From Xestospongia bergquistia (Eukaryota; Porifera; Demospongiae; Haplosclerida; Petrosiidae), in assembly GCA_963965975.1 (NCBI GenBank), contig OZ014412.1:15870349-15934348 (forward strand): a stretch of DNA of 64,000 bases, written 5' to 3'. Numbering within the stretch: the stretch's first letter is position 1; every line of letters begins with the position of its first letter. Below are positions 46,804-63,359 of this stretch, piece by piece. Position numbers and translations under genes: made by a program. A model generated the notes under the pieces. That model ran no database searches. It had not been told where the DNA came from and was given only the letters and a program-made list of their open reading frames with translations.

Positions 46804-48334
46804 TCAATAACTTCGTCCAAACAATGTATAATATTTGGCTGAATTATCACAACCATCACGAACACACTTTGTTCCTGGAGCAATATCCTTTGGCTGTGAG
46901 AAAGGAATACAAAGTGCTTTAGCTCCCATAGCTGGTGCTCCAGGCTCACTAGCCTCCTCTCTGCAAGAGAGAAATTATATAAATAAAAATTCAAGTAAAA
47001 TAAACTTTATCAAATACCTTGTACTCATTTTCTTAACAAGATCTTCACAGTCAATTTCACCACAATATGGAGCCATAATGATCTGAAATAGTACAGTACT
47101 AATATCATTACTGATACACAATTATTACATTAATATAATGGAAATATTAAAATAAATTGTCTCTCATACCATTTTATTGTCAAGACTAACACAGAATTCT
47201 TCCCAATCTTCCACTACAGCTATATGAGTGTCCAACTCATATTTAGCTCTAAAAGGGTTAAAAGTAAATTAAGTCATTTAATATAAAAACATTTAATAAT
47301 AACTACATTACTGATAACTTTATAATATCAGTAATACTTTACTTGGTAAATAGTCTTTCTTGTATGTCACTCAGCATTTGGTGAATGGTTGCTACGGCAA
47401 CTGCTATGTCATATGATTGTTTGTCACCACTATCACGTGAGATAGCTACAAATTGTTTACTCTTCATATCACGTGGACCAATCTCAACTCGAATAGGAAC
47501 ACCCTATTGTTAAAAAACATATATAATACTGAATGGACATATATTCACAGTATAGTCAGTAAGGACAAATATTATGAATTGACCTTTAGCTCCCAGTGGT
47601 AAAACTTCCATCCTGGTGAGTAATTATCTCTAAAGTCTCCCTTTACTCTCACTCCATTGTCTTTAAGTGTTGTTATAAAAGATTCACAATAATGTATTAC
47701 TTCAGATCTTGTGCTTTCGTCCATCTCAGCTGTAATACCACAGGGGATAACAATCACCTAGAGGAGTAAATAAAGGGTTAAAACATAGACATATACATTT
47801 CGTACATGCAGTCAAATAGCCTATTCATTGTTTGTCTGTTCATTCATTGGATACCCGTCTACCTATCCTTAAGCTTGTCAAACCAGATATACCTGTATAT
47901 CAGCAACATTAGGTGGTATTATAAGTCCTTTATTGTCTCCATGTATCATGACCATTACTCCAACAGATCTAGTAGTTAGACCCCATGAGTTCTGGTATAC
48001 ATAACAATGATTGCCTTCCTACAAGGATGTACAGGATGGTAGATACTAATGTAGCAAAATGCCTTTCATTGTATAAATATCAGTTGACATGTTTGTGTAC
48101 ATTTTATCTAAAAATCAGTTTGGTGTCAAATTAATTAATGACAATGAATATTATTATAATATATTTCTAGATATGTGTGGTTCCAAAGTAATGATAAACA
48201 TGAACACAGTAATTAAAATTAGTTGCTATAGAATCAATAAAAGTGACGCATCAAATGTTCATTGTGTGTGTGGTATCCTTCTAACTGAAGCTAGTCAAAA
48301 GAAGGGTTCCATAAGGAGAGTCTTAAATATAACT

Positions 48335-61500: not shown

Positions 61501-63359
61501 TCCAAGTAATGAGTTGTGTGATCTCTGCATTCAAAAAGGATATCTTACAGAACACATACAAGCATGGAATGCAGCTCTTCAAAGGGTAAGCCACTAAATA
61601 CTACTTAATTTATTTGTTCTATTACAATTCAATATAGAAAAACATCCCAAGAGACTACAAGCTCAATGGAGGTATATATAAAATATAGGATATTAATTTA
61701 AGTGCATGTATAGATTAAATATGAAAGGTACAGTCATTACAGGTTTTTAAACATAGATCTAACATCTCAAGATGTACAAATGTTAGTTACACAAATCGCC
61801 ACATACCCAAATGATGCTATTGTAGCATTCAAAAATGAATTGGAATGTCCTATACATCCTCTACCACTACCAAAAGATAGTTCAAAATGGTGGTGTGTCT
61901 TGATGACAGTCATCACAAAATGGATGGTAGAGCATCCTCACAAAGAGTCTACTAAAAAATCAATGGCTACTATTCTTGTCAAATTGCATGAGCAATTCAA
62001 GAGCAAACATGATGAAACCAGGTTCAAAGAGTTAGCAAGAAAGCTTGATTTACAAGGTAAAACCCATCATTATACTCTAACTTTTATTGTTGTCTTTAGC
62101 AATGATTGACTCAGAATGGCAACACTTAGAACATACCTTTGCTTTAAAACCAATGTCAGGACAATTACAAAAGAATGTCAACCCCATTACAAAATGCCTA
62201 TCTGCTCCTACCTCTCCAGCATTAGGCTCTAAGCAGAGGGAAGAGTTACATGCAGAACAAAACAAATAAACTTATATACAGCAGAAAATAAGAAAACAGT
62301 AGTAGAACTATAAAAATGTTTCTTTACAAATAACATAAATAGTTTCACAATAATATTGTGTTGTATTGGCTGATTTATATTGTACTTTATAAATTACCTT
62401 ATTTGGATCTTCAAATTGGATTCCAAACATTTTAGAAAAGTTTTGTCCTAAATGATGAGATGTAGCAGCCTGGAGAGAGAAAGAGAGATATGACAACCAC
62501 TACACAACACATATAACATACCTGTATACCTCTCCCACTAGCTGATACATAAGCCTCAATAGTTGTAGTATAATCTCCTCCAGCAAATTTCTCTTTGACT
62601 GTTTTTCTTCCTGGAATAACAGGAATAGCCAACAACTCTTCATATACTCTACGATATAAGTCAAGTATATCCAGCACCTAAAAAATGGATGGATAACATA
62701 GAGAGATAGATCAATAAATAGATGAATGGACAGATAGGTAGATATAGACCAATTGATGGACACACCTCTCTTTCTGCTTCCTCTTTATAAGCAAATGCAG
62801 TATGTCCCTCTTGCCATAAGAACTCTCTAGTACGTAGGAATGGTTGAGGATGTTTGAACTCCCAACGCTAAAAAAGAAAGATAATACATGTATTATTAAC
62901 AATATATATCATATCAATATAGATATTGGTGATGTGACTGCTACTTGGTAACTATAGCAACCTAATATAACATACAATTATATGAATGCATAATATCTTA
63001 CTACTACATTACACCACTGGTTCAGTTTAAGAGGTAAATCTCGATGTGACTGTATCCACTTAGCATATGATGGATACATTACTGGTAAGACAAGGAAAGA
63101 AAGGGTTAACTTCAAAGTTGTTAGTAAAATGGAGGATGTACACATGTACAGTATTAAGTGTATTACTTACCAGTTTCAGACGTTGGACGTATAGCAATTG
63201 GTTCTGCTAACTCAGACTGTCCAGATTTAGTAACCCATGCTACTTCAGGAGCAAAGTCCCCAATATGGTCTTTCTCCTTTTCCAAAGCAGATGACGACAC
63301 AAACATTGGAAAATAACAATTTTCTACTCCAAGCTTTTTAATCTCTCTGTCGAAAAAGT
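55525..63359 (-). CDS. EPRS: EPRS copy D: prolyl-tRNA synthetase region, intact as far as visible (5' part outside window)
   Basis: Exons in order: 63359-63171 ([32 protein letters not shown]), 63081-63002 ([20 protein letters not shown]), 62867-62766 ([20 protein letters not shown]), 62677-62522 ([19 protein letters not shown]), 62469-62398 ([15 protein letters not shown]), a 5.65-kb intron containing family gene 6, then 56743-56618 ([16 protein letters not shown]), 56476-56303 ([12 protein letters not shown]), 56223-56063, 55968-55890, 55798-55734 and 55681-55525 (ends [11 protein letters not shown], stop TGA). It charges tRNA-Pro with proline in the cytoplasm. The sequence follows the ProRS half of animal bifunctional EPRS. 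The glutamyl half and WHEP repeats are not in the window, so the bifunctional call is inferred. All exons are open and in phase. Confidence 0.85.
57003..62269 (+). CDS. ROCO-like family gene 6: Death, two CARD-like folds, novel domain, P-loop, COR-like, helical, short tail; nested in an EPRS intron
   Basis: Exons: 57003-57054 ([10 protein letters not shown]), 57135-57419 (Death; [21 protein letters not shown]), 57548-57817 and 57872-58189 (CARD-like), 58244-58324, 58371-59056 (novel domain), 59526-59658, 59712-61585 (long exon; Walker [45 protein letters not shown]), 61638-61671 (micro-exon), 61757-62056 (helical) and 62100-62269 (tail; stop TAA). All phases agree. The N-terminal half matches family gene 4 exon for exon, but the tail is short with no ZU5, UPA or Death. 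KVWDL is replaced by NVWDL. The gene starts 260 bp from one EPRS exon and stops 128 bp before the next, entirely inside the host intron and on the opposite strand. Confidence 0.8.

Follow-up and report, generated by a model that had tools for sequence, protein, structure and literature searches.

It is customary to regard nested genes as passengers with the same history as their host. In the 64,000-nucleotide stretch of the genome of the sponge Xestospongia bergquistia analyzed here (the window, C2:15870349-15934348, GenBank OZ014412.1, one of 21 contigs in a 146-Mb assembly), two tandem copies of EPRS, the gene for the bifunctional glutamate/proline-tRNA ligase, are 97 to 98% identical in their exons and enclose, on the opposite strand of the same intron, two family genes that differ by half of their residues. 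We lean toward a duplicated EPRS locus in which the intronic cargo of one copy, copy C, would have been exchanged.

The local region examined covers 104 kb (the window and its flanks, with negative coordinates lying left of the window). Its family genes are named, in left-to-right order, Ra, Rb, and R1 to R6; Ra and Rb precede the window, R1 straddles the window's left edge, and R5 and R6 are family genes 5 and 6 of the first-pass annotation of this DNA. The parts of R genes are given as open reading frames (ORFs), and their extents follow the ORFs. EPRS exons are named core c1 to c5 and tail t1 to t6, in copies A, B, C, and D. The evidence base is the genome sequence, host splicing across the guests is read from exon anatomy, and genome-wide counts of ProRS and family matches are lower bounds.

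The complete EPRS gene and its nested gene R6

Copy D and R6 are arranged as follows.

63359-63171, 63081-63002, 62867-62766, 62677-62522, 62469-62398, minus strand: core exons c1-c5 of copy D; joined protein 711 bits to EPRS chains
56744-62397, minus strand: phase-0 intron of copy D, 5,654 bases, holding R6; splice sites, gap-free joint
56743-56618, 56476-56303, 56223-56063, 55968-55890, 55798-55734, 55681-55525 with stop, minus strand: tail exons t1-t6 of copy D; PF09180 match
57137-62106, plus strand: R6 open frames
57137-57424, plus strand: Death ORF of R6
57514-57825 and 57865-58224, plus strand: R6 frames without a Pfam match
58361-59119, plus strand: R6 frame, low-confidence helical plus alpha/beta
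59663-61594, plus strand: large P-loop/COR-A-like ORF of R6
61714-62106, plus strand: C-terminal ORF of R6

The core ends with ...FEDPNK at 62398, followed by the donor GTAATT, and t1 begins at 56743 behind an AG acceptor, both in phase 0. AG and GT stand at the copy D exon junctions with consistent phases, the start of c1 being ambiguous between acceptors at 63359 and 63344. The protein joined from c1-c5 and t1-t6 (449 amino acids) matched solved chains named "Bifunctional glutamate/proline--tRNA ligase" over residues 2 to 449 with 711 bits and with no gap at the c5/t1 joint; we take these chains to be human. The splice from 62398 to 56743 that the first-pass annotation had named thus appears to be the right junction by donor and acceptor, phase, and gap-free joint.

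Genome-wide, all 20 matches to a ProRS query of 356 amino acids (without exons t4-t6) fell inside the window, and all four matches to PF09180 (ProRS C terminus) fell at the EPRS locus. Five of the 14 matches to PF00749 (GluRS/GlnRS catalytic domain) were found at C2:15936437-15937880 on the minus strand (about 66.1 to 67.5 kb), just beyond the window and beside copy D, which is the only copy that GluRS exons adjoin; the remaining nine are on C5 and C15. A WHEP-like linker was recognized by eye only. The class II core profile PF00587 gave four matches on C9 and C10, which we take to be other class II synthetases, and none at the EPRS locus, where the domain is split into short exons. The GluRS and ProRS halves of a bifunctional EPRS therefore lie on one strand at one locus, and copy D is, as judged from these searches, the one complete EPRS gene found in the genome. 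Since D alone stands beside GluRS exons and all ProRS matches are here, the exon anatomy implies that in a working EPRS core D would be spliced over R6, or over a longer distance, to reach a tail.

The R6 ORFs lie wholly in this intron on the opposite strand and nearly fill it, with 393 bases between t1 and the first ATG and 291 bases between the last family ORF and c5. The segment 57113-57424 matched PF00531 (Death) with an E value of 1.2e-6 and 29 bits, above the cut-off of 22.6, and the large ORF of 644 codons has a P-loop and weak COR-A similarity. By this anatomy, R6 in copy D is confirmed as an opposite-strand nested gene whose host exons are coding and continuous on both sides.

A near-identical host copy with a different guest

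Copy C lies beside copy D in a second tandem unit, with R5 in the corresponding intron.

45719-54290, unstranded: unit C of the tandem pair; homology to D firm from 45873 on, 45719-45865 being a repeat found elsewhere too
54295-64000, on to 64996 outside the window, unstranded: tandem unit D; firm left edge 54547, repeat from 54295
52799-53742, minus strand: core c1-c5 of copy C, open, without GluRS exons or the upstream ProRS exon
48019-52798, minus strand: intron of copy C, 4,780 bases, holding R5
46804-48018, minus strand: tail t1-t6 of copy C, open; PF09180 match
48335-52375, plus strand: R5 open frames; first exon 48335 to about 48700 (other family), large ORF 49907-51910, C-terminal ORF 52076-52375

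The layout of copy C around R5 is that of copy D: c5 ends at 52799, t1 starts at 48018, and the R5 ORFs lie wholly inside the intron on the opposite strand. The first ATG stands 316 bases from t1, and 423 bases separate the last family ORF from c5. Both D and C have a GT donor and an AG acceptor whose phases match, and B shares the acceptor. Host continuity in copy C is supported exon by exon only, the upstream ProRS exon being absent. The earlier claim that family genes 5 and 6 nest on the opposite strand in one phase-0 EPRS intron of C and D was borne out, with a gap-free joint in D.

The two units lie head to tail, C ending at 54290 and D beginning at 54295 (repeat) or 54547 (firm), and the short repeats at their left edges, which recur near 10.4, 22.5, and -14.9 kb, may have mediated the tandem duplication. 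Related short repeats were seen at 45719-45865 and 54291-54509 (the unit left edges), 10409-10527, and 22398-22518, and they occur downstream of R2 and Ra. Copy C is without the 1,085 bp at 63479-64563 of D, a segment that holds the upstream ProRS exon (presumably the region of class II motif 1) and whose ends share AACT. A frameshift considered for c1 of copy C was dropped; with the acceptor at 63344, the 2-base loss falls in the intron.

Homology between C and D ends at 48025/56750 and at 52795/62394, within 4 to 7 bases of both splice sites, and identity drops there from more than 90% to background within bases. No homology of the copy C intron to the copy D intron was found outside the family gene.

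Divergence of hosts and guests

Overall, EPRS exons are 97 to 98% identical between C and D and the small introns about 91% (exons 750/762 in the tail and 577/597 in the core; introns 401/443 and 316/347, respectively), with a synonymous divergence (dS) of 0.045 in the tail and 0.083 in the core. R5 and R6, by comparison, share 49% of their amino acids and 63% of their DNA, with a dS of 1.24 and differences at 46 of 101 fourfold sites. A mismatch of the same kind was obtained for copy A, whose relic is 87% identical to D (747 of 855 aligned bases) while R3 and R6 have a dS of 1.35.

A tree of the eight local genes and three outgroup genes (653 columns) placed the local family genes in one clade, in which R5 joins R2/Ra (support 94/96, just below treekit's star) and then R4 (96/96). 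Approximately unbiased (AU) tests, on groups derived from the model of the first-pass annotation and run after the tree was seen, rejected R5 and R6 as sisters (p 0.0009) as well as a clade of the EPRS-linked genes R3, R4, R5, and R6 (p 0.00017); R4 with R6 was not rejected (p 0.06).

The first exon of R5 gave no Death-domain match in the Pfam scan and no match at E <= 1e-3 elsewhere in the local 104 kb. A genome search returned seven matches to it on C10 and C13 at 68 to 71% DNA identity, and the best protein match per fetched locus was 46 to 48% in amino acids in six of the seven and 39% in the seventh. These seven fetched 10-kb stretches contained no match (E <= 1e-3) to the N-terminal ORFs of R6 or to the large and C-terminal ORFs of R5. 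The same loci (L055-L061) hold a dispersed gene family with an ORF like the R5 first exon, and L057, L058, and L060 have two matches each. Apart from these seven and the match of the query to itself, the search yielded five short matches to stretches of the query outside the first exon, including one at 59134-59228 beside R6, and we read them as dispersed repeats.

Because the large exon of R5 is nearest to the non-nested R2/Ra and its first exon resembles genes on other contigs, we read the cargo of copy C as exchanged. A block of EPRS tail, nested gene, and EPRS core would have been tandemly duplicated to give C and D; copy C would then have lost the upstream ProRS exon by a deletion with 4-base microhomology at its ends; and after the duplication the intronic gene of C would have been exchanged to give R5, the EPRS blocks standing as near-identical bookends around exchangeable cargo. 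In copy D, the EPRS pre-mRNA would be made across R6, which would be removed along with the intron, and R6 would be transcribed from its own promoter on the other strand.

Copies A and B and the extra EPRS tails

Two further copies of EPRS are incomplete.

35431-36673, minus strand: tail t1-t6 of copy B, open, beside R4
37113-43435, plus strand: R4; counterpart of the R6 Death ORF beginning near 37113; large ORF 40089-42023; C-terminal part ending at 42425; ZU5 ORF 42617-43435
11561-11631, plus strand: relic of c5 of copy A
18729-19395, plus strand: decayed relic of t3-t6 of copy A; PF09180 and ProRS matches
11937-14302, minus strand: R3, between the two copy A relics

Copy B had been described as a 3' half beside family gene 4; its six open tail exons (36673-35431) do lie beside R4, and no core was found. 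B and D remain homologous beyond the tail and across the N-terminal ORFs of R4 and R6, at about 67 to 88% per 200 bases, against 92 to 98% in the tail. Since R4 and R6 have N-terminal exons in common and an EPRS tail beside each, one old duplication of tail plus R gene (B/R4 and D/R6) is likely.

For copy A, the same order in inverted form had been claimed. The inverted relics, with stops and missing exons, do flank R3 in the relative order of D, the c5 relic at 11561 standing between R2 and R3, with the qualification that R3 is more than 4 kb from the tail relic and an ORF (17337-18332) lies between. This minus-strand ORF of 331 amino acids, which falls within the inverted block of copy A, resembles a membrane protein and had no Pfam match above the cut-off.

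Tails B, C, and D are all open over 762 bases. Exons are less diverged than introns in all four comparisons (Fisher p 7e-10 to 5e-4), with 12/762 exonic and 42/443 intronic differences for the C-D tail, 17/762 and 31/456 for the B-D tail, 23/762 and 35/452 for the B-C tail, and 20/597 and 31/347 for the C-D core. In a stricter test for purifying selection, a null model with one freely evolving copy was rejected clearly for the C-D tail (p 2e-6) and marginally for the B-D tail (p 0.04) but not for the B-C tail (p 0.13) or the C-D core (p 0.11). The suggestion that the extra host copies were left to decay therefore fits copy A and the truncated core of C, and not the open tails B and C or the lower divergence of exons. 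The result for the C-D tail would be explained if tail C were an alternative EPRS end or had recently been converted from D; a role for tails B and C, both open, as alternative 3' ends of the EPRS gene is speculative.

Singletons unique to B and to C are unevenly distributed, at 15:28 left and 42:6 right of D 55932 (permutation p 5e-5). When the test was confined to t1-t6 (53 sites), it did not show gene conversion (p 0.48), the uneven singletons stemming from the 3' flank.

The family of the nested genes

The large ORF of R6 has at least 60 matches in the genome (77 candidates, 69 scored). At least 10 match stretches come from the eight local genes, at 46 to 54% amino acid identity to R6 (R6 itself excepted), and at least 50 of the 60 lie outside the EPRS locus, on C1, C2, C3, C4, and C10, with at most 36% identity; those elsewhere on C2 are at 5.12-5.24 and 10.55-10.57 Mb. 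The genome search with ProRS gave no match at any of these outside places. Four of the eight local genes (Ra, Rb, R1, and R2) have no assigned EPRS tail or core.

The P-loop motif GxPxSGK[ST] is invariant apart from its last residue in all nine aligned large-exon proteins. COR-A was detected below the Pfam cut-off in five of the nine scanned (R2, R3, R5, R6, and Rb; best E value 6.8e-5, 23.2 bits against 35.3) and gave no match in the other four (R4 and the three outgroup members). Roc gave no match in the large ORFs of R2 to R6 at E <= 0.1, nor in R5 (repeat), Rb, and the three outgroup members at E <= 1. In the label "immune-like ROCO" given earlier, the first word is fair for R6, which carries the Death domain, and the second is weak. 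TRADD-N had no Pfam match in the R6 and R5 proteins scanned.

A profile of five family sequences found no match in the PDB at E <= 10. Structure models of 58391-59089 (two sequences, mean predicted local distance difference test score [pLDDT] 54.9) and of the large family ORF (five sequences, mean pLDDT 39) are too poor for claims about folds; of the 775 Foldseek matches to the former at E <= 10, some low-ranked ones were ferredoxin/RRM-like, and none reached E <= 0.001. By tblastn, no R6 relatives were found in bacterial/archaeal or viral contigs (23 and 2 pattern matches).

ZU5-like ORFs stand behind R1 (1430-2110) and R4 (42617-43438) and are about 80% alike over 461 bases. The match to PF00791 (ZU5) is at the cut-off behind R4 (E value 0.00041) and has an E value of 0.15 behind R1. 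The ZU5 ORF at 42617-43435, which carries a Gly/Thr-rich repeat stretch, we infer to be part of R4.

Ra is a near-copy of R2 and its flank (5216-11447 versus -19997 to -13854), about 25 kb to the left, and is interrupted by a run of 200 N; Ra and R2 are possibly a haplotype or assembly duplicate. Their identity is 98.4% over the large exon and 95.0% over the 4 kb behind it, which shows that mutation is no faster in the family exon than in the adjoining flank.

Weighing the explanations

Either of two causes, exchange of the cargo or homogenization of the host exons, could underlie the mismatch between host and guest, and several points weigh against exchange. A replacement at random would not be expected to break off precisely at the two splice sites, and old divergence with homogenized exons explains such edges at least as well. 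No donor of R5 was found, the region upstream of R2 having no match to the R5 first exon, and the 3' flank of R5 has no second copy in the genome. The tree leaves the order among R6, R3, Rb, and R1 unresolved, and its proteins are about 50% identical. Left of the tail, C and D share a flank (45873-46272) with an identity of only about 84%, so the C/D duplication may have happened earlier than one would judge from the EPRS blocks. An ancient co-duplication, after which the big introns diverged and gene conversion or unequal exchange homogenized the EPRS exon blocks up to the splice sites, is in our judgment less likely than exchange. It would account for homology that ends at the splice sites on both sides, and it agrees with the higher identity of B and D in the tail than through the N-terminal ORFs of R4 and R6 and with the uneven B and C singletons, though these derive from the 3' flank. 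Once R5 and R6 are rejected as sisters, however, it would require that the cargoes of C and D split close to the root of the local cluster and that R2/Ra branched off afterward, and the different first exon of R5 would still call for an exchange.

The proposal of the first-pass annotation that host exons plus nested gene were the unit of duplication, with EPRS as the vehicle of the family's expansion, has little chance of being right. Order and orientation are alike in C, D, and inverted A, and R4 and R6 share their N-terminal ORFs and adjoining tail and are not rejected as a group, but host and cargo disagree in divergence (C-D against R5-R6, A-D against R3-R6), the EPRS-linked clade is rejected, and all ProRS matches fall at this locus while at least 50 of 60 family matches do not. 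With half of the local genes also free of EPRS parts, a vehicle would explain at most a local part of the expansion; what stands of the first-pass proposal is the nesting, the antisense orientation, and the tandem duplication of the locus. We give even less credit to an assembly error that joined near-identical EPRS blocks in the wrong order and so produced the interleaving. Blocks of about 1 kb at 91 to 98% identity in a tandem array could favor it, as could two 200-N runs in 104 kb, one of them between copy A and B-D. R5 and R6, however, differ by over a third of their DNA and each lies fewer than 430 bases from the core and tail edges, so that an error inside the EPRS blocks might have exchanged units, yet the nesting would persist; an R-free joint is seen at neither c5 match nor at any of the three t1 matches, and 32401-84000, which holds B, C, and D, is free of N. 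As for EPRS halves in separate transcripts (a split gene or trans-splicing) with no splice across R6, the near-complete filling of the intron by R6 speaks for this reading, but the phase-matched splice sites of D and C and the shared acceptor in B oppose it, and the gap-free EPRS-like joint would be a coincidence; we regard its probability as close to negligible.

The 200-N runs, one within Ra and one at 32201-32400, may be assembly gaps or withheld stretches. The latter stands amid repeats at 31.9-32.8 kb that recur near 25.1-25.7 kb, and an ORF at 33020-33490 resembles what we take to be a piggyBac-type transposase fragment.

Under the exchange of cargo that we favor, the EPRS intron could be an exchange site in a wider sense, with near-identical blocks as recombination handles that swap immune-like members, tails B, C, and D as alternative ends, and expression of R genes and EPRS coupled through antisense transcription. 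This extension is distinctly unlikely as a whole.

Comparison with known systems

The mismatch between host and guest histories is a more interesting point than the vehicle idea. If confirmed, the locus would offer a natural test of duplicated housekeeping exons as handles for shuffling immune-like genes and of the effect of an antisense guest on tRNA synthetase expression.

Like the ROCO GTPases, the family has a GxPxSGK[ST] P-loop and weak COR-A similarity, and unlike them it has no Roc match. In the sections available of the account of the Amphimedon expansion of Death/TRADD-N proteins (PMC8195603), N-terminal Death-like domains are followed by TRADD-N and then a variable C terminus. R6 resembles these proteins in its Death ORF at the front and differs in that TRADD-N is unconfirmed in it and that a P-loop/COR C terminus is not named in those sections.

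Nested genes are common in sponges, with 3,358 among 43,615 genes in Amphimedon queenslandica according to Table 1 of PMC10282587. As in other animal opposite-strand nested genes, a complete coding gene here occupies an intron of a host that runs in the opposite direction. Unlike typical nested genes, the host is the one complete EPRS gene found, the block is tandemly duplicated, and the cargo differs between near-identical host copies. Among the open-licence papers listed, no title or abstract opening dealt with guests exchanged between duplicated hosts or with EPRS as the host of an immune gene, which is weak evidence of absence. For polq-1/ceh-10 (PMC12274878) and H13/Mcts2 (PMC13309782), nested-gene transcription is described as altering host transcription through a short form or intronic polyadenylation; for EPRS and R6 such a link would be a lead from layout alone. 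Another parallel is LRRTM/alpha-catenin, where three pairs are traced to duplication of one nested structure (PMC3933685). The likeness lies in a multiplied pair of host and nested gene with later loss of host or guest, and the difference from that account is that the histories of host and guest appear to disagree for EPRS and its R genes.

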